A stretch of DNA of 64,000 bases from Herpetosiphon geysericola (GCF_001306135.1 NZ_LGKP01000002.1:1-64000), one strand, 5' to 3'; counted from the stretch's first letter, positions 1-37,439 are shown. A program made the numbers and translations. Notes: a model not told the origin generated them from the letters alone.

Positions 1-126
1 GGTGGCCACGCGATTTGAGAAACTGGCCCTGAACTATCTCGGATTCGTCCATCTGGCGATGATTCAACGCTTGGTGCGTATCCTTGCACCAGCGACATCG
101 GTATCCTGAATTATCAGACAGAGCCT
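1..126 (+). mobile_element. Right end of an IS5-type insertion sequence
   Basis: The first 109 bases encode the C-terminal tail of an IS5-like transposase, and the following 15-20 bases would be the right terminal inverted repeat. The insertion boundary is placed near 126 because the minus-strand Hsp70-like reading frame loses sense there and runs into the element. The exact end, the target duplication and the left end cannot be fixed because the rest of the element is outside the window. Confidence 0.6.
2..109 (+). CDS. IS5-family transposase, C-terminal fragment (cut by window start)
   Basis: Thirty-five codons are open from the window edge to a TGA at 107-109. The peptide VATRFEKLALNYLGFVHLA, followed by a basic hydrophobic tail, resembles the extreme C-terminus of DDE transposases of the IS5 group, where an R-[YF]-[DE]-K-L-A-x-N-[YF] motif follows the catalytic Glu helix and precedes a short helix. 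Catalytic residues are not in view. The reading sense is from outside the window towards the right. The family call rests on this one motif. Confidence 0.6.
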   Translation: MATRFEKLALNYLGFVHLAMIQRLVRILAPATSVS

Positions 127-254
127 ACTGATGGATGTGGTTTGCCAAGATGTGTTAAGCTGGCAGGCACCATCTTTCTCGATTCAAAATCTTGTTGAAT
201 CAATGTGATTAAACTACTGGTCGTACCAAAATCTAAGCCGAATGTTGCAGCCAT
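114..254 (-). pseudogene. Hsp70/DnaK-like protein, N-terminal remnant interrupted by an IS
   Basis: An ATG at 254 opens a frame whose product begins MAATFGLDFGTTSSLITLIQ, the first phosphate loop (D-x-G-T-T) of actin/Hsp70-fold ATPases. It later reads LGKPHPSVGSV, matching the 'kP.PSV' strand seen in Hsp70-like proteins. After about 43 codons the frame enters the IS end and stops at 114-116. The start overlaps the stop of the upstream coiled-coil gene by 22 bases, which suggests translational coupling. The rest of the gene, if kept, lies beyond the IS outside the window. It differs from the true dnaK at 34219, so it is an accessory Hsp70. Confidence 0.65.
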
Positions 255-1207
255 TGTAATTCCCTTTCTACAAGCTGTAGAAGATTGTTTAATCGCTCTT
301 CAACAACTTCCAATCGCTTAGGATCTGCTTGAATTGCTTCAATACTCGTAGTTAACCAACGTATCATTTGGCCTTGTAATACACCAGAAAAGTGCTCTCG
401 TAATTCATTAGTTTTATATAAAAAAGATGCCTTCATACTATTAATATCATTTTCTAGATTATTTTTCTCTACCTCTAAATTTGTTACTTTATTTTCAAGA
501 TTATTGATTGTTGAATTTAATTCATTTATTGAATTAATATACTTATTATTCTGATCATATAGATAATTTGCTTTATTTATTAAAGCATTTGATTTATCAT
601 TGATTGAACTAATATAATCAGATAAATAACTTGATGATTCGGGATTAATAGTGAAATATGTTACTATATCTATAAGGTTATTATATGCATACTTTGAATT
701 TGAGATTTCTTTGATTATGTATAAGTATTCATTTTCGTTTATTAGTTTATTTAATAAACTGTAATATAAATATATAGTTATAGTATTTATATTATAATCT
801 TTATTATTTATGAAATTTCTAATTTTGGTTGATAATGAAATAATATCTCTGAAATCAATAATAGATATTATATTATCTCGTTCAATCATATATTCTACAC
901 ATTCTGTTAGTAGTTTATTGATCTCAGGGATATTTTTTGTTTTATTTAAAAGTAAAAGAAATTTGTTTGTATATTCTGTTTTTTTAATAATGCACTCAAT
1001 AAATTCATTTCTTTCCTCAATACTCATCTGAATTGGTTTTCTAGTTTTTTTAATTATAAGTTTGTTCGTGATTTTATCACGAGTTTTATTAGAATCATAT
1101 TGAATATATTCAATAAATTGATCAATGTCTCTTTTAACCGTAGTGATAAATTCAATCCAAGGAGATTTTGGTTTTGCCGATTTTAGTGTTGAACTATCTT
1201 TTTGCAT
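233..1207 (-). CDS. A+T-rich coiled-coil protein upstream of an Hsp70-like gene; possible GrpE-like C-terminus
   Basis: This 324-residue protein has no signal peptide or membrane segment. Residues 1-200 are helix-rich and full of Asn, Ile and Lys. Residues about 205-265 form a heptad-rich coiled coil (SINELNSTINNLENKV and onward). The last 60 residues (ELREHFSGVLQGQMIRWLTT onward) are more normal in composition and amphipathic. A long coiled coil followed by a helical domain just upstream of an Hsp70-like gene recalls the layout of GrpE nucleotide exchange factors, but this is inference only and no signature residue is decisive. An AAGGAA element lies about eight bases before the ATG. It is the middle gene of a minus-strand operon, 36 bases after the zinc-finger gene. 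Base composition is very low in G+C (13 of 60 in 661-720), a sign of transfer. Confidence 0.7.
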   Translation of the reverse strand: MQKDSSTLKSAKPKSPWIEFITTVKRDIDQFIEYIQYDSNKTRDKITNKLIIKKTRKPIQMSIEERNEFIECIIKKTEYTNKFLLLLNKTKNIPEINKLLTECVEYMIERDNIISIIDFRDIISLSTKIRNFINNKDYNINTITIYLYYSLLNKLINENEYLYIIKEISNSKYAYNNLIDIVTYFTINPESSSYLSDYISSINDKSNALINKANYLYDQNNKYINSINELNSTINNLENKVTNLEVEKNNLENDINSMKASFLYKTNELREHFSGVLQGQMIRWLTTSIEAIQADPKRLEVVEERLNNLLQLVERELQWLQHSA

Positions 1208-1243
1208 ATCATTATTCCTTATGTAAATTTGAAGAAGGGATTA

Positions 1244-2332
1244 TCAATATTGTAACCTATTTCTGTGAATCTCTGCTTTTGAATCTTGATGACTCCTTTC
1301 ATAATAGGACAAACAGATTAGATGCAATTTTCTTGCATCTTGGTTGCTAACGAGATTATTAGAACTTCTGAATAATATATCTTCCAATTTATCAATGTCA
1401 ATATTATTTTCTGAGTAATATAATTTATTACAAGAATCAATAACTAGTTTAGTGAGAGTATCAATTGGACATATATTTAAAGATACATTTGCCTGACTTC
1501 TCGGACAAGTACTATGAAATGTATTTATCTCTTTTTTTCTAAACATTTCTAAAGCTATTTCTAATTCTAGTAAATTTGTTTTCATCTTTGCATTAAAAAT
1601 ATTCAGATTTAATCTAATAGCATTCGCTATAATATTTGGGATAGTTCTGTTGTATTTTTTTAGAATGTTTAATGATGAACGCATTTTTTCATCAAAATCA
1701 CCAAAATTAAATGATGATCTTCTATTTTTGGGATTATCCTTCATAACAATTCCTAAAGCATAATTAGCAAGAGCATTCTTGTAGTCTAAATATTTTGAAT
1801 CAAAATTAGATTCTTCCATGAAATAATGTATATAATCATGATTTAATTGATCAATAGCTAGTTTGTCTATAAATATTTTATCAATTTCATTAAGAATGTC
1901 ATCATTCATGATTTTGAATTCTATAAAATATTTTTGAATAGCATTAGGTTTATTTATTAATGTAATAATAATTACACAATCTCTTTCTTTGGAAAAGATA
2001 GATTTTAATTCTTGAATTGATATATCTTTTAGTAAACGATTATTATATTGTATTTGACATGACGAAGTATTCAATATCTCTATTGCATTAAATGATATGG
2101 GTCTTGTAATAATCTTTTTGCTAGTTATCTCTTTATCATGAATTATTAGCTTAGGAAGTTGTAGTGGATGCTCTAAATTAATATGAGCTTCACGTTCCCT
2201 TGAAGTATTGAATAAACGACCACATGTAGGGCAGGCAAATTGATGAGGTACTTTATGATCATCTTTAGCTACGATATGATTTTCCCAAAAGCGCTCAACA
2301 TCATCTTCAAGTCTCCAGCCTAATGTTGGCAT
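1244..2332 (-). CDS. C2H2 zinc-finger protein of unknown function, first gene of the A+T-rich operon
   Basis: The frame is open further upstream, to 2584, but the ATG at 2332 has a strong AAAGGAG five bases before it and lies downstream of a good promoter, so a 362-residue product is called. Residues 34-55 form a canonical C2H2 finger: Cys34 and Cys37, twelve residues, then His50 and His55. The finger follows an acidic/aromatic N-terminus (MPTLGWRLEDDVERFW). The rest is Ile/Asn-rich, apparently helical, and matches nothing I recognise. Single C2H2 fingers are uncommon in bacteria, where they bind DNA or protein partners. Linkage to a coiled-coil protein and an Hsp70-like ATPase suggests a substrate-recognition role, but this is inference. 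Confidence 0.7.
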   Translation of the reverse strand: MPTLGWRLEDDVERFWENHIVAKDDHKVPHQFACPTCGRLFNTSREREAHINLEHPLQLPKLIIHDKEITSKKIITRPISFNAIEILNTSSCQIQYNNRLLKDISIQELKSIFSKERDCVIIITLINKPNAIQKYFIEFKIMNDDILNEIDKIFIDKLAIDQLNHDYIHYFMEESNFDSKYLDYKNALANYALGIVMKDNPKNRRSSFNFGDFDEKMRSSLNILKKYNRTIPNIIANAIRLNLNIFNAKMKTNLLELEIALEMFRKKEINTFHSTCPRSQANVSLNICPIDTLTKLVIDSCNKLYYSENNIDIDKLEDILFRSSNNLVSNQDARKLHLICLSYYERSHQDSKAEIHRNRLQY

Positions 2333-2389: not shown

Positions 2390-2418
2390 AATATAAGGAA
2401 AATGCAATGAGAATTCAA
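2390..2418 (-). promoter_or_regulatory. Sigma-70-type promoter of the zinc-finger/coiled-coil/Hsp70-like operon
   Basis: Read on the minus strand, TTGAAT (2413-2418) and TATATT (2390-2395) are separated by exactly 17 bases. Transcription would start near 2383, about 50 bases before the ATG at 2332. The promoter lies just past the htrA terminator, so the island has its own transcription unit. Confidence 0.6.
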
Positions 2419-2590: not shown

Positions 2591-3805
2591 TTAAGGGCGT
2601 GCCCCCAAGATTACCTCGACTGTTTGCTCTTGATCATCGCGAATAATCGTCAAATTAACTTTATCGCCAACCCGCGAATCGTTGATATGGGCAATCAGAT
2701 CGTCGCTTGAGCGAATACGTTCGCCATTGAAGGCGGTCACAATATCGCTATCAATAATCAATTCAGCGCCTTCAACTTGGATGCTGTTTGTGCCCAAGCG
2801 AATGCCTGCTTGATCAGCGGGGCCATCGACAACGACATTGGTGACGAGTGCACCTTGGTTAACTGGCAATTTCAATTCTTCCGCCAATTGGGCGCTAATC
2901 GTGAGCATGCTCACGCCCAAATAGGCCGAATCGTGCTTGCCTGTTTTAATCAGATCTTCAACAATGATTTTGACCGTATTTGCAGGTACGGCGTAGCCAA
3001 CCCCTGCAAAGGCTGGAGCTGCCGTCGGGTCGCTGACCCGAATTGCGGTGTTGATGCCAATCACTTCGCCGTTGCTGTTGAGCAACGGGCCGCCGCTATT
3101 GCCAGGGTTAATGGCCGCGTCGGTCTGAATGATGCGGCTGATCCGAAATTGGCCGCCATTGGCTAGGGTGCGCCCAGGCAACGAACGCCCTTCGACAGCG
3201 CTGACAATCCCCAAGGTCATCGTATTTTGCAAGCCAAAAGGATTGCCAATCGCAATCGTATCTTGGCCAACTTGAACCTCGCGTGAGTTGCCAAAAACCA
3301 TCGGCGCGATGCTGCTTACTTCCTCGGCCTCAACCTTAATCACCGCAATATCGTTATCTTGATCAGCGCCGCGCAAGGTTGCTGGCACTTGGCGGCCATC
3401 GGAGAAGGTGACAAAAATGCGGGTAGCACCTTCGATGACATGGTTGTTGGTGGCGATATGGCCTTGATCATCGACCAAAAAGCCTGAGCCAAGCGCTTCT
3501 TGGGTCACTTCTTGGCTGCTTTCGCCAGCAACTTCGGTGTCGATACTGACGACAGCAGGCCCAACCCGCTTGTACAAATCGATGCGGGCTTGCTCATCGC
3601 TAAGATCATTGCTTGGGTTGGGATTAACCGAACTGGCTGCAACTGGCGTTGGATCAGCTGACAGAGTTGGCTTGAGATTTGTACTTTGCTCAGGAGTCGC
3701 TTGTTCGCTCGGAGCAAAAATCCAAATTAAGATACTGCCCAGGATACAAAGCCCTAGTGGAATAAGAAATGCTGGAATCAAAACACGCATGCTGCGTTGC
3801 TTCAT
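2591..3805 (-). CDS. htrA: HtrA/DegP-type membrane-anchored serine protease with PDZ domain
   Basis: The protein degrades or refolds damaged extracytoplasmic proteins. The ATG at 3805 is preferred over the one at 3814 because AAAGGA lies eight bases before it, giving 404 residues. An N-terminal membrane segment (about residues 9-30) is followed by a Ser/Pro/Thr linker. The S1C trypsin-fold domain carries His122 (ATNNHVIEGA), Asp152 (DQDNDIAVIK) and Ser237 in the classic NPGNSGGPLL. One PDZ domain covers about residues 300-390 (AYLGVSM and DQAGIRLG). It is monocistronic and ends at the terminator at 2431-2466. Domain order and length are typical of single-PDZ HtrA proteins. Confidence 0.95.
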   Translation of the reverse strand: MKQRSMRVLIPAFLIPLGLCILGSILIWIFAPSEQATPEQSTNLKPTLSADPTPVAASSVNPNPSNDLSDEQARIDLYKRVGPAVVSIDTEVAGESSQEVTQEALGSGFLVDDQGHIATNNHVIEGATRIFVTFSDGRQVPATLRGADQDNDIAVIKVEAEEVSSIAPMVFGNSREVQVGQDTIAIGNPFGLQNTMTLGIVSAVEGRSLPGRTLANGGQFRISRIIQTDAAINPGNSGGPLLNSNGEVIGINTAIRVSDPTAAPAFAGVGYAVPANTVKIIVEDLIKTGKHDSAYLGVSMLTISAQLAEELKLPVNQGALVTNVVVDGPADQAGIRLGTNSIQVEGAELIIDSDIVTAFNGERIRSSDDLIAHINDSRVGDKVNLTIIRDDQEQTVEVILGARP

Positions 3806-32487: not shown

Positions 32488-33552
32488 ATGAATCTAGAAC
32501 TCAATGAGCGGCGACGACGGGTGCTTAAGGCGGTTATCCAACAATATATCGATACGGCAACGCCTGTCGCCTCGCAAGATCTTGCGCGGAGTTTAGGGGT
32601 TAGCTCAGCAACTGTTCGCAACGAAATGGCAGCCTTAGAAGATGCTGGCCTTTTGACCCATTTGCACACGTCGGCTGGGCGCTTGCCCACCGATGCTGGC
32701 TATCGCTTCTTTGTCGAAAATTTGATGGATCGGGCGGCGCTTTCCACCCAAGAACAGCGCATGATCCAACATCAGTTCTATCAAATCCGCTCGGAATTGA
32801 ACCAATGGATTCATTTGGCAGCAGCGGTTTTGGCTCGAACTGCCCAAACCGCAGCCGTGGTTACCCCGCCGCGTGCCTATGAAAGTCGCTTTAAACATAT
32901 TGAATTGATCGCGATCAACGATGCTTTGGTGTTGATGGTTTTGGTGTTGCACGAAGGCTCGGTTAAGCAACAAACGCTGCCCGCCGACCCCAACACCACC
33001 CAAGAGCAGCTTAGCAGAATCGCTGGCCGGATTAATGAGCTTTGTCATGAAGCTTCGGCCAGGGTGATTACGGCCCTCGCGCTAACGCAGCCTGTGGCTC
33101 AGCCACCGCTCAGCAGTTTTGAAGTGCTGGTGATCGAGAGCGTGGCGCGGGCAATGCAACAATTCGAGGAGCATGTCAACGAATTAATTCATCACGATGG
33201 CTTGCTCGAAATGCTGCATCAGCCAGAGTTTGGCCAGGTGACGCGGGTGCGCGAGGTGCTTTCGATTCTCGAAGGCGGCACGATGCTCGAATCGCTCATT
33301 CCCCAAGCGTTGGCCTCCGATGGCGTGCAGGTAATTATTGGCGGCGAGCATAGCCGCGATGAGTTGCGCGATTATAGCGTGATTCTTTCGCGCTACGGAG
33401 TCAACGGCGATGTTGCTGGGGTGGTTGGGGTTTTAGGGCCGCGCCGCATGGCCTATCCGCGCTCAATTTCCAGCGTGCGCTATATCGCTGGGGTCATGAG
33501 CGATCTGATGGGCGATTTATACGGCGAACGCAAAATAGAACCAACAGAATAG
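32488..33552 (+). CDS. hrcA: Heat-inducible transcription repressor HrcA
   Basis: The 354-residue protein has an N-terminal winged helix ([20 protein letters not shown], then [20 protein letters not shown]), the DNA-binding core that recognises CIRCE. A GAF-like middle domain carries the family's '[12 protein letters not shown]' near the C-terminus. Length and motifs fit HrcA throughout. GAGG lies six bases before the ATG. It is the first gene of hrcA-grpE-dnaK-dnaJ and is controlled by the CIRCE directly upstream. GroEL normally helps HrcA fold; no groEL is in the window. Confidence 0.97.
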
Positions 33553-33608
33553 TCGCATGACTAGGCTGAATTAATACTGTTTGATCTTTACGGAGGTATG
33601 GAGTTCTC

Positions 33609-34124
33609 ATGACGGAAGAAGTGCAAGCACAATCAACTGACGATACCAATCCTCAAGGCGATCCAGAAAGCCTGAACGAACGGATCGCCACGCTCGAACG
33701 CGAAGTTGAAGAACATAAAACCAACTGGATGCGCGCAATTGCTGATTTCAAAAATTACAAACGCCGCACCGAAAGCGAACGCGAGGAGTTGATTCGCAAT
33801 GCTAGCGCTGGTTTGATGTTGAAATTGCTTCCAGTGCTCGACGACCTGCTCTTGGCGATGGGCCAAATTCCTGCTGAAATTGAAAACAATCAGTGGATTG
33901 GCGGCGTTAAACAAGTACAACGTAAATTTGAAACGGTGCTTGAGGGCGCTGGCCTGCAACCAATTCCCGCCGTTGATGAAGAATTCGACCCCAATGTTCA
34001 CGAAGCAATTATGTTTGAAGAAGGCGACGAAGCCCAATCCAACAAAGTCGTGGCCGAATTACGCCGCGGCTACAAGCTCGGCGAACGGGTCTTGCGTCCA
34101 ACGGTCGTCAAAGTCGGCAAGTAG
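33609..34124 (+). CDS. grpE: Nucleotide exchange factor GrpE
   Basis: This 171-residue cytoplasmic co-chaperone releases ADP from DnaK. An acidic N-terminus is followed by the long coiled coil (ERIATLEREVEEHKTNWMRA) and the DFKNYKRR motif. The beta-domain signature FDPNVHEA and GYKLGERVLRPTVVKVGK at the end match the GrpE pattern. GGAG lies five bases before the ATG. It sits 56 bases after hrcA. Confidence 0.97.
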   Translation: MTEEVQAQSTDDTNPQGDPESLNERIATLEREVEEHKTNWMRAIADFKNYKRRTESEREELIRNASAGLMLKLLPVLDDLLLAMGQIPAEIENNQWIGGVKQVQRKFETVLEGAGLQPIPAVDEEFDPNVHEAIMFEEGDEAQSNKVVAELRRGYKLGERVLRPTVVKVGK

Positions 34125-34135
34125 GAGCACCTAGG

Positions 34136-34193
34136 CAAAGCATCGTTTAAGTGGCATCGCTGCCGTTTGTGGCTGTCGCTTAGCGATGCTTTG
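34136..34193 (+). terminator. Stem-loop between grpE and dnaK
   Basis: A 10-bp inverted repeat (CAAAGCATCG / CGATGCTTTG) encloses a 38-base loop with a secondary internal stem. It may be a processing site or partial attenuator that sets dnaK above hrcA-grpE; no strong T-run follows. Confidence 0.5.
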
Positions 34194-34218
34194 TCGCTGT
34201 CTGTGGAGCAATAACTAT

Positions 34219-36075
34219 ATGGGTAAAGTGATCGGTATTGACCTTGGAACAACCAATTCAGTGGTTGCGGTCATGGAAGGTGGCGAGGCGGTGGTGATTC
34301 CCAACGCCGAAGGCGCACGCACCACGCCTTCAATTGTCGCCTTGAGCAAAAACGGTGAACGCACGGTTGGCTTGGTGGCCAAGCGCCAATCGGTCACCAA
34401 TCCCGAAAATACAATTTATTCGGTCAAACGCTTTATTGGCCGTAAATTAGATCATCCTAGCGTTCAACGCGACAAGGATCTGATTCCCTATCGCATGACC
34501 AGCGCGCCCAATGGCGATGCACGGGTCTTGATGGGCGGTCGCGATTATTCGCCCCAAGAAGTTTCGGCCATGATTTTGCAAAAGCTCAAAGCAGATGCTG
34601 AAGCCTATTTGGGCGAGCCTGTCACCCAAGCAGTCATTACGGTTCCAGCCTATTTTGATGATTCGCAGCGCCAAGCGACCAAAGATGCTGGCAAAATTGC
34701 TGGCCTCGAAGTATTGCGCATCATCAACGAGCCAACCGCTAGCGCCTTGGCCTATGGCTTGGATCGCAACACCAACGAATTAATTGTCGTCTATGACCTT
34801 GGTGGCGGCACCTTCGACGTTTCAATTTTGGAGCTTGGCGATGGGGTGTTCGAGGTTCGGGCAACCAACGGCGATACCCACCTCGGCGGCGATGATTTCG
34901 ATCAAAAGATTATCGATTGGCTGGCAAGCGAGTTTCAGCGCGAAAATAATATCGATTTGCGCAGCGACCGTATGGCCTTGCAACGCTTGAAAGAAGCTGC
35001 CGAAAAGGCCAAACAAGAGCTTTCGAGCGTGTTGCAAACCGATATTTCGCTGCCATTTATCAGTGCCGATGCCAGCGGCCCCAAACACTTGAACACGACC
35101 TTGACCCGCGCCAAACTTGAGCAGTTGACTGGCGATTTGGTCGAACGCACGCTCAAGCCAATCAAACTTGCCTTGCAAGATGCTGGTTTGAAGGCCAGCG
35201 AAGTTGATGAAGTGATTTTGGTTGGTGGCCAAACCCGGATGCCAGCTGTGCAAGCTGCCGTCAAAAAATTCTTTGGCAAAGACCCACACAAGGGCGTGAA
35301 TCCTGATGAAGTGGTGGCGATTGGCGCGGCAATTCAGGCTGGTGTGCTTTCGGGCGATGTGACCGATGTGCTCTTGCTTGACGTAACGCCATTGACCTTG
35401 GGCATCGAAACCTATGGCGGCGTGATGACACCATTAATTGATCGCAACACGACGATTCCGACCAAGCGCTCGCAAATTTTCTCAACCGCGAGCGACAACC
35501 AAAATAGCGTCGAAATTCATGTGTTGCAAGGTGAGCGCGCCGAAGCCCGGCATAATAAATCATTGGCCCGCTTTACCCTCGATGGCATTCCTGCCGCGCC
35601 GCGTGGCGTGCCGCAAATTGAAGTTATTTTTGATATTGATGCCAACGGGATTGTCAACGTCAGCGCGACCGATAAAGCAACCAATAAAGAGCAAAAAATC
35701 ACGATCACGCCATCGTCGGGCTTGAACGATGAAGAAATTGCCTCGATGATTCGTGATGCTGAAGATCACGCCGATAGTGATGCACGCCGCCGTGATCAAA
35801 TTGCAACCCGCAATAAAGCAGATGGCGTAATCTACGCCGCCGATCGCATGCTGCGCGAAGCAGATGAGAATGTTGATTACACAGCGCGCAACACGGTCGA
35901 AGATCGAATTGCGGCCCTGCGGGCGGTGCTTGATGGCGACGATATGGAAACGATCAACAATCGTACTGCTGAATTGAGCGTAGCAATGCAACGGCTCAAG
36001 CCAGCGCCCGATTTTGGCATCGAGCCAGAAGCCCCCAGCCAAGAACAAGGCAATGCCGACGAAGTGGAACTCTAA
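34219..36075 (+). CDS. dnaK: Molecular chaperone DnaK (Hsp70)
   Basis: This is an ATP-driven protein-folding chaperone. The product has 618 residues from the ATG at 34219 (GGAG about eleven bases upstream); an upstream TTG at 34186 would add non-homologous residues. It begins [20 protein letters not shown]. The ATPase domain contains [14 protein letters not shown] and [13 protein letters not shown]. The substrate domain has [16 protein letters not shown], and a charged tail ends in DEVEL. Compared with Gram-negative DnaK it lacks the roughly 25-residue insertion in the ATPase domain near residue 80, as in Gram-positive and Chloroflexi forms. It follows grpE by 94 bases. Confidence 0.98.
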
Positions 36076-36080
36076 CGAAA

Positions 36081-36290
36081 TTATGAATTATGAAGGATGA
36101 GGGATGAAAAGGGAGGATGAGCGATAAGGAACACTATTAACTGATTTGAATAAGTTTTTTAATCTAGCAAAAATGTGAATGATGGGGATGTTCATAATTC
36201 ATCCCTCATCCTTCATCCTTCTACAAGATTAACCAAGGTATGAAGCTTTGAGGGTTTCATAATTCATCCCTCGTCCTTCATCCTTCTACA
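36081..36290. repeat. Periodic 'CATCCCTCATCCTT' repeats inside the dnaK-dnaJ operon
   Basis: Two direct copies of a 35-base unit (36191-36225 and 36256-36290, one mismatch) and one inverted copy (17 bases, 36092-36108 against 36198-36214) fill the gap. The units are built from seven-base steps of the ATCCCTC/ATCCTTC kind. The inverted copy could pair in the mRNA. Related sequence is found at 43808-43835, 47665-47780 and 59930-60243. Confidence 0.85.
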
Positions 36291-36302
36291 TAAGGGATAT
36301 GT

Positions 36303-37439
36303 ATGGCAACCGAGGCAAAACGCGACTACTACGAGGTACTAGGTGTGGGCAAAAGTGCCTCACCTGACGAGATCAAAAAGGCCTACCGCAAGTTGGCCAT
36401 GCAATATCACCCCGACCGCAACCCAGGCAATGCAGAAGCCGAAAACAAATTTAAAGAGGCAACTGAAGCCTACGAAGTGCTTTCGAACGATCAAAAGCGC
36501 CGCATGTACGACCAATTTGGCCATGCTGGCAGCAGCGGCCAAGGCTTCGACCCATTTTCGGGCTTTGGTGGCGCTGGCGGTGATCCATTCAGCACCATTT
36601 TCGATGCCTTCTTTGGCCAAGGTGCGCGCGGCGGCAGCCGTGGTGGGGCACGTCAAGGTGCCGATTTACGCGCCGATTTAGTGATTAGCTTTGAAGAAGC
36701 GATTTTTGGCACCGAAAAAGAGATCGATTATCGGCGGCTTGAATCGTGTACAACCTGTGGCGGTAACGGTGCTGAACCTGGCACCGAGCCAACGCGCTGC
36801 CCCAAATGCCAAGGTTCAGGCGAGATGCGCGTGCGAACCTTCCTGAATATGGTCACCGTAACCACCTGTGATCAATGTTCTGGGCGCGGCGTAATCATTC
36901 CGATTCCTTGTAAAACCTGTCGTGGCGAAGGCCGGATTCGCGAAACCGTCAAGCGCAAATTGACGGTGCCTGCTGGGGTTGATGATGGCATGCGGATTCG
37001 GATTGGTGGCGCTGGCGATAGCGGGCCAAGCGGTGGCTCGGCTGGCGACTTGTATGTTAATTTACGTGTCCAATCCCACGATTTCTTTGTGCGCGAAGAG
37101 AACAATATTCTGTTGCAACTGCCGATTAATATTGTGCAAGCAGCCTTGGGAGCGCAATTGAATGTGCCAACCGTTGATGGCGATGAGCCGCTGAACGTCC
37201 CAGCAGGTACGCAGGATGGCACAGTCTTTACCTTGCGTGGCAAAGGCGTGCCCTACATTGATTCATCGGGACGCAACTTAGGTCGCCGTGGCGATCAAAT
37301 GGTCGTAGTAAAAGTGCGGGTACCAACCAAGCTTAATGACGACCAGCGCGAACTGTTCCAGAAACTGGGCGAGACCATGGGCATGGATCATTTCGAGCAA
37401 AAAGAACGTGGCTTCTGGAGCAAAATCTTCGGCAATTAA
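36303..37439 (+). CDS. dnaJ: Chaperone DnaJ (Hsp40)
   Basis: This 378-residue type I J-protein delivers substrates and stimulates DnaK ATPase. The J domain (residues 1-70) carries the HPD tripeptide (YHPDRN). A Gly/Phe region follows ([17 protein letters not shown]). The zinc region has four CxxCxGxG repeats ([24 protein letters not shown] and CKTCRGEG). The C-terminal client-binding domains end in [15 protein letters not shown] is about six bases upstream of the ATG. A repeat-filled gap of 227 bases separates it from dnaK. Confidence 0.98.

Follow-up and report, generated by a model that had tools for sequence, protein, structure and literature searches.

A possible remnant of a mobile zinc-finger, coiled-coil, Hsp70 and RelE-like gene module in Herpetosiphon geysericola

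Results

Two intact genes and an hsp70 stub lie at the A+T-rich end of the window

The DNA analysed here, which we call the window, is a stretch of 64,000 nucleotides from Herpetosiphon geysericola (GCF_001306135.1, NZ_LGKP01000002.1:1-64000), corresponding to the first 64 kb of contig C13 in an assembly of 6.14 Mb in 46 contigs, so that window position 1 is the first base of that contig. A preliminary description, made from the sequence alone, had proposed an A+T-rich operon at its left end, encoding a single-finger C2H2 protein, a long coiled-coil protein and an Hsp70-like ATPase, as a candidate undescribed stress or defence module. The two long genes are indeed present as intact minus-strand open reading frames (ORFs) of 362 and 324 amino acids (aa), followed by the 5' stub of an hsp70 gene, and homologues recur in the same order, together with a fourth gene, in nine further records. 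The features of the region are the following.

1-127, plus strand: insertion sequence (IS) end, made up of the C-terminal part of a transposase-like frame, with its stop near 109, and the element end; lies at the contig edge and interrupts the hsp70 gene
128-254, minus strand: 5' remnant of a dedicated Hsp70 gene, which the IS cuts after about 42 codons; from translation and alignment to full-length module Hsp70s
233-1207, minus strand: coiled-coil protein, 324 aa, putative second module gene; ORF and positional orthologue whose C-terminal 60 or so residues match the family's conserved C-terminus
1244-2332, minus strand: single C2H2 zinc-finger protein, 362 aa, first module gene; ORF, with hhalign and blastp matches to actinobacterial orthologues
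2390-2418, minus strand: candidate sigma-70-like promoter, 9 of 12 consensus matches with a spacing of 17; in the right place, not above chance
2417-2422, no strand: right edge of the transferred island, where nucleotide homology to five of five congeners stops
2426-2470, no strand: inverted repeat, terminator-like hairpin of a resident htrA-like gene; self-complementary blastn match in the same place in five of five relatives

The 362-aa protein has one C2H2 finger, as described (C-x2-C-x12-H-x4-H at residue 34), and the pattern C-x2-C-x12-H-x3-5-H is conserved at residue 32-34 in 9/9 homologues, with the Pfam zf-C2H2 score falling below the cut-off. Its alignment by hhalign with six actinobacterial orthologues has a probability of 97.2 (E 3.5e-11, 222 columns), and the Arthrobacter orthologue is matched by blastp at 23% across 343 aa (E 8e-15 with the search space set to 1e9). 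For the 324-aa protein a long coiled coil is plausible, the matching profiles being generic coiled-coil ones, all below cut-off. The GrpE-like layout assigned to it, and with it a role as exchange factor, found no support: a GrpE model is absent from its Pfam matches at E <= 1, hhalign to the window's own GrpE aligns 5 columns with a probability of 0.1, and we rejected this assignment for want of any sequence likeness. A reading as J-domain (DnaJ) co-chaperone was rejected as well, the HPD motif occurring in 0/9 zinc-finger and 0/9 coiled-coil proteins.

The third frame starts at 254 (MAATFGLDFGTTSSLITLIQQDFESRKMVPASLTHLGKPHPSV, with a stop soon after) and reads on the minus strand as MAATFGLDFGTTSSLI...GKPHPSV to the stop at about 114. 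Its phosphate-1 motif, GLDFGTTSS, contains the DFGTT-S of Hsp70 proteins. Alignment with the N-termini of five full-length module Hsp70s begins at the very first residue of the stub and shows G-DFGTT-S and G-PH-S in common; by itself the stub matches no Pfam family. With an IS end occupying positions 1-127, hsp70 retains just 128-254, about 42 codons, and the window thus holds neither the Hsp70-like ATPase gene nor the whole module that had been described, hsp70 ending after those codons. The transposase-like frame in 1-127, read from the window sequence, is VATRFEKLALNYLGFVHLAMIQRLVRILAPATSVS followed by its stop, and by eye we assign the element as IS5-like. Contig C13 breaks inside this IS copy. 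The stop/start overlap ascribed to the genes holds for the coiled-coil and hsp70 genes, which overlap by 22 bp, and not for the zinc-finger and coiled-coil genes, which are separated by a 36-bp gap.

The genes lie on an island specific to this genome

The G+C content is 0.262 in 128-2420 versus 0.51 in the rest of the window, and the base counts given earlier (13/60 G+C in 661-720, 37/60 in 3061-3120) are exact on recount. The longest open stretch of the island is 391 codons, compared with a maximum of 131 among 500 shuffles. Homology to all five congeners begins only at 2417-2422, and other genes occupy that place in them, so that the island is an insertion specific to the H. geysericola genome; its description as A+T-rich transferred DNA is borne out by the 26% G+C and by its absence from the five congeners. 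The hairpin at 2426-2470 (CGGGCGGGTGC...GCACCCGCCCG), which is kept in all congeners, directly adjoins the island edge and may be a favoured insertion point. The promoter that the genes were said to have at 2390-2418 is present as a site and well placed, but such sites are no commoner than chance, with 21 promoter-like sites found in the region against 18.6 +/- 4.0 expected from shuffled sequence. Credible relatives of the zinc-finger protein are absent from 399 other sampled Chloroflexota genomes; two Chloroflexota matches (G014 and G344) lie in ordinary gene surroundings with no Hsp70 gene and were rejected as module copies.

A four-gene module in actinobacteria and on conjugative plasmids

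Searches with the diverged window proteins gave little, and a scan of genome contigs with the window protein found no relatives. The exception was a 24% match of the zinc-finger protein on Paenarthrobacter ureafaciens plasmid pA, where a zinc-finger gene (split by IS3) stands in a row with genes for a 376-aa coiled-coil protein, an Hsp70 family protein and a 446-aa protein. Scanning genome contigs with the Paenarthrobacter Hsp70 yielded four close relatives, in Arthrobacter, Pseudarthrobacter, Sphaerisporangium and Nocardioides, each with one tight row of zinc-finger (about 375 aa), coiled-coil (about 363-423 aa), Hsp70 (about 590 aa) and fourth (about 445 aa) genes, the junctions in one of them (L024) being 4-bp overlaps. 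Further genome searches added three actinobacterial copies (G530, G991 and G1237), and a second plasmid copy is carried by the AT5 plasmid. The order zinc finger, coiled coil, Hsp70, fourth gene is thus found in nine further records, namely seven actinobacterial genomes and two conjugative plasmids.

In all nine the homologues stand in identical order beside a full-length Hsp70 gene, and therefore the possibility that they never co-occur with Hsp70-like genes is false. The zinc finger, coiled coil and Hsp70 set of the preliminary description accordingly recurs, but not as a self-contained three-gene unit, since the relatives have a fourth gene, with a predicted RelE-like domain. Comparison of sequences and gene order suggests that the window row is the same module as the actinobacterial copies, with firm homology for the zinc-finger protein, an aligned Hsp70 stub and a coiled-coil protein placed by position. 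For the latter, position and the shared C-terminal pattern point weakly to membership of the family, the profile match being a C-terminal one of 45 columns (E 0.055). Seeds aside, the module occurs in about one genome per 350-400 sampled, and is therefore rare and patchy; scans and tblastn of viral contigs and phage records found no homologues. The zinc-finger, coiled-coil and fourth proteins are not described in Pfam, NCBIfam or PADLOC.

On the two Paenarthrobacter plasmids (L017:7911-10302 and L031:8134-15506) the same IS3 splits the zinc-finger gene and, on AT5, the fourth gene too. Repeated disruption by IS elements (of hsp70 in the window, of the zinc-finger gene on pA and of both genes on AT5) fits a module that is costly to keep, an argument limited by the fact that the host plasmids are simply rich in that IS3.

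The module is frequently found beside defence genes

A possible tie to defence had been put forward for the window genes, and most of the nine further records do adjoin defence genes. Neighbours include HmaB/HmaC, a type IV restriction enzyme and a PRTase (L022), DndB and a DndD/PbeC-like protein (L023, Sphaerisporangium), an Mrr endonuclease (L021), MADS-8-like and PDC-S44 proteins (L052), a type I methyltransferase and a kinase-like plus PP2C-like pair (L072), an ArdC-like antirestriction gene (L024), and DUF262, GIY-YIG, helicase and methyltransferase genes on the two plasmids. PADLOC matches at E <= 1e-4 were obtained for 13/20 flanking proteins, picked by eye, versus 3/10 control ORFs, taken from distant positions in the same genomes; at about E <= 1e-40 the counts are about 7/20 and 0/10. 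By this rough measure, in a small sample, the module is frequently located beside known defence genes.

Directly after the module in L072 (4210-8082) are genes for PP2C-like, vWA-like and PIN-like/kinase-like proteins, which resemble another conflict-system cassette, and an EcsC-family protein is encoded just downstream of the Sphaerisporangium module (L023:11676-12737).

The module Hsp70 has ATP-site motifs and a cysteine-rich tail

The relatives' Hsp70 is full-length (PF00012, 162.7 bits). Compared with the window's own DnaK (34186-36075), it keeps GFDFGTTNS, a DWGGGTLDLT phosphate-2 motif, the VAGG adenosine motif and the lysine of the SPK-LG segment, and where DnaK has its helical lid it has a conserved PCAVCK-WG-P-CRC stretch. 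This CxxC...CxC tail is conserved in L024 (8001-9776), L022 (8001-9767), L021 (5150-6916), L072 (9741-11507) and L073 (9276-11042). The natural reading of these motifs is that the module Hsp70 would be an active ATPase with a metal-binding tail.

The fourth protein has a predicted RelE-like domain at its C-terminus

Beyond coiled-coil noise, the fourth protein matches no family in Pfam, NCBIfam or PADLOC. The model of its whole length (mean predicted local distance difference test, pLDDT, of 61) has a beta-rich N-terminal part, two long helices forming coiled coils and a small C-terminal domain. Since the whole-length fold search was swamped by the coiled coils, the C-terminal domain was predicted alone; RelE had been suspected from the protein's sequence pattern ahead of the structural search. 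The model of the C-terminal 116 residues (predicted template modelling score, pTM, 0.61; mean pLDDT 67.6) consists of a strand, two helices, three strands and a helix, which is the strand-helix order given for E. coli RelE (PMC11980606). In VIA-align, rows 1-34 are all RelE, HigB, YoeB, YafQ or ParE-type toxins, the best with Z 7.2 and a root-mean-square deviation of 2.4 over 73 aligned, and ribosome-bound RelE aligns with Z 7.1 (86 aligned). Foldseek ranks HigB2 first (probability 0.85, E 0.036) and the CARF-RelE RNase Cami1 third. The scores are middling singly and the list is uniform, and with modest confidence we assign the C-terminus a predicted RelE/HigB fold. The domain has no match in viral models and none in PDB sequences by profile search. 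Residues of the R, H, K and Y types are conserved in the fourth protein.

The window copy is likely a relic

The hsp70 gene of the window is cut at codon 42 or so by the IS end, and its remainder is not found among the six PF00012 matches in the genome. These comprise two DnaK-type genes, a 452-aa Hsp70-like protein that accounts for two of the matches (C12), a 371-aa protein (C1) and an MreB-like protein on C34, and all were rejected as the missing part, as none of them is situated at the edge of a contig; a candidate for the fourth gene in the same genome was discarded as a chance match (E 0.185). The Herpetosiphon copy is therefore probably the front half of the module, dead or partial and inactive: its hsp70 is cut, and the assembly yields neither the rest of that gene nor a fourth gene. 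We consider it likely that the window has no working system and that the island is a relic, in which two genes were orphaned when an IS inserted and the remainder was lost. Against this, both upstream ORFs are still open, and the missing part could sit on an unassembled contig. As the two ORFs are open, any decay would be recent. A relic in the window is compatible with the family as a whole being a defence module.

Discussion

The gene set and its order, the patchy spread, the company of defence genes and the broken window copy can be read from the sequences compared here. The explanation that we favour, at a probability of roughly 0.4, is that the window holds the remnant of a mobile four-gene module built around a chaperone-gated RelE-like effector, with defence against phages or other mobile elements as its most likely function. 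Its parts would be an adaptor with a C2H2 zinc finger, a coiled-coil partner protein, a dedicated Hsp70 in which a Cys-rich tail follows the ATPase core where the lid would be, and a protein whose coiled coils are followed by a C-terminal domain of RelE/HigB fold. The Hsp70 and its two partners would fold the RelE-like effector or hold it inactive as part of a complex. Competition for the chaperone by phage proteins, or by a disturbed proteome, could then free the effector, which would cleave mRNA on the ribosome and stop the infected cell, by analogy with toxin-antitoxin-chaperone (TAC) systems. RNase activity, inhibition by Hsp70 and triggering by phage are steps that we infer. In its most specific form, in which the module is an immune sensor of chaperone occupancy and the Cys-tailed Hsp70 and the zinc-finger and coiled-coil proteins restrain a RelE-like ribonuclease until phage proteins load the chaperone, the proposal is a tentative one, to which we give about one chance in three.

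Several observations weigh against this explanation. The window has no fourth gene, and sequence ties its coiled-coil protein to the family only weakly. The RelE fold comes from a modest model (pLDDT 67.6, four sequences; Foldseek E 0.036), and the RelE/ParE/HigB Pfam models match 0/5 fourth-protein members at E <= 10. No antitoxin is recognised, and SecB and helix-turn-helix (HTH) antitoxin models are absent among the module proteins. Furthermore, the neighbourhood test is small, with flanks chosen by eye and ten control ORFs, and L073 is without obvious defence neighbours.

The same genes could instead form a specialised stress or proteostasis device, in which the dedicated Hsp70, zinc-finger adaptor and coiled-coil scaffold protect a client, for example a mobile element's complex, and the RelE-like domain is a non-catalytic binder. 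The retained ATP-site motifs of the Hsp70 and the occurrence of the module on conjugative plasmids would suit such a device, as would a fourth protein with no catalytic family recognisable by sequence, and some RelE-fold domains lack RNase activity, such as those of the ParE branch, which inhibit gyrase (PMC11980606). Nevertheless, a rare and patchy spread among defence genes is unlike that of housekeeping chaperones, and the genome already has a full hrcA-grpE-dnaK-dnaJ set in the window, so we regard this explanation as unlikely, at perhaps one chance in four. It is less probable still that the module serves addiction or plasmid maintenance, with the zinc-finger and coiled-coil proteins as antitoxin, Hsp70 as their chaperone and defence as a secondary effect. 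In contrast to typical type II modules, it has its toxin-like domain in the last gene and joined to long coiled coils, and copies broken in single genes persist, where an active effector ought to make loss on the antitoxin side lethal; what speaks for addiction is the predicted RelE-fold domain, the conjugative plasmids, the ArdC-like antirestriction gene nearby and the TAC precedent (PMC5105189). Finally, the four genes might be a variant of known Hsp70 conflict systems reduced to the chaperone part, either of the GAP1-N2 GTPase systems with HSP70 and GrpE or of CoCoNuT-like McrBC systems with the CnuD Hsp70. Both predicted systems use Hsp70-like proteins and GAP1-N2 has actinobacterial members (PMC7159879, PMC11090510), but Pfam, NCBIfam and PADLOC identify no GTPase, McrB, McrC or GrpE among the module proteins and the four genes form a constant set of their own, which makes this derivation very improbable.

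The chaperone-gated effector that we favour has partial counterparts. SecB-like chaperones control HigB toxins in TAC modules, an arrangement known as chaperone addiction (PMC5105189), and the four-gene module likewise appears to encode a dedicated chaperone beside a RelE/HigB-superfamily toxin domain, for which phage-triggered release would be plausible; it differs in that its chaperone is an Hsp70 rather than SecB-like, that no HigA-type antitoxin is recognised, that the toxin-like domain forms one protein with long coiled coils and that extra zinc-finger and coiled-coil proteins are present. DnaK enhances the HigB-family toxin GraT in Pseudomonas putida (PMC7918210), so that action of an Hsp70 on a HigB-type toxin has a precedent, although DnaK there is a housekeeping protein whereas the module Hsp70 is dedicated and encoded in the putative toxin operon. 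Cami1, a CARF-RelE ribosome-dependent RNase that is among the structural matches, also carries a RelE-fold C-terminal domain in a multidomain defence effector; in contrast, the module has no CARF domain, and its regulators would be chaperone-like proteins and not cyclic oligonucleotides. Chaperone-dependent sensing of phage is known from the bacterial NLR bNACHT25, which requires DnaJ (PMC12169576).

Conflict systems containing Hsp70 have been published with GTPases (PMC7159879) or with McrBC cores (PMC11090510). With the GAP1-N2 systems the module shares an Hsp70 in a predicted actinobacterial conflict system, while its four genes include no GTPase or GrpE and form a constant set with a C2H2 finger and a predicted RelE-like domain. 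CoCoNuT type III resembles it in pairing an Hsp70-like protein (CnuD) with coiled coils among defence genes, as well as in a predicted RNA-directed attack; the module, however, is without a McrB or CnuC/McrC homologue, its predicted effector is RelE-like and not HEPN, and the ATP-site motifs of its Hsp70 look intact, whereas CnuD is described as degenerate (PMC11090510).

If correct, our proposal would add an Hsp70-based member to the few chaperone-controlled immune or toxin systems and would offer a testable idea of how infection might be sensed via chaperone load. Irrespective of mechanism, the family named here comprises four genes, extends over two phyla and conjugative plasmids, and looks undescribed, as it is not listed in PADLOC and we found no published account of it.

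Two further observations concern the surroundings of the island. Positions 1-127 recur with 99-100% identity at the ends of contigs C26, C34, C11, C7 and C3, and with 88-89% identity at the ends of C27, C23 and C17; one IS family, in these two variants, thus breaks the assembly at many sites, and many contigs start or end inside copies. The same contig also carries a complete housekeeping heat-shock cluster, hrcA-grpE-dnaK-dnaJ, at 32488-37439 of the window, with no relation to the island module.

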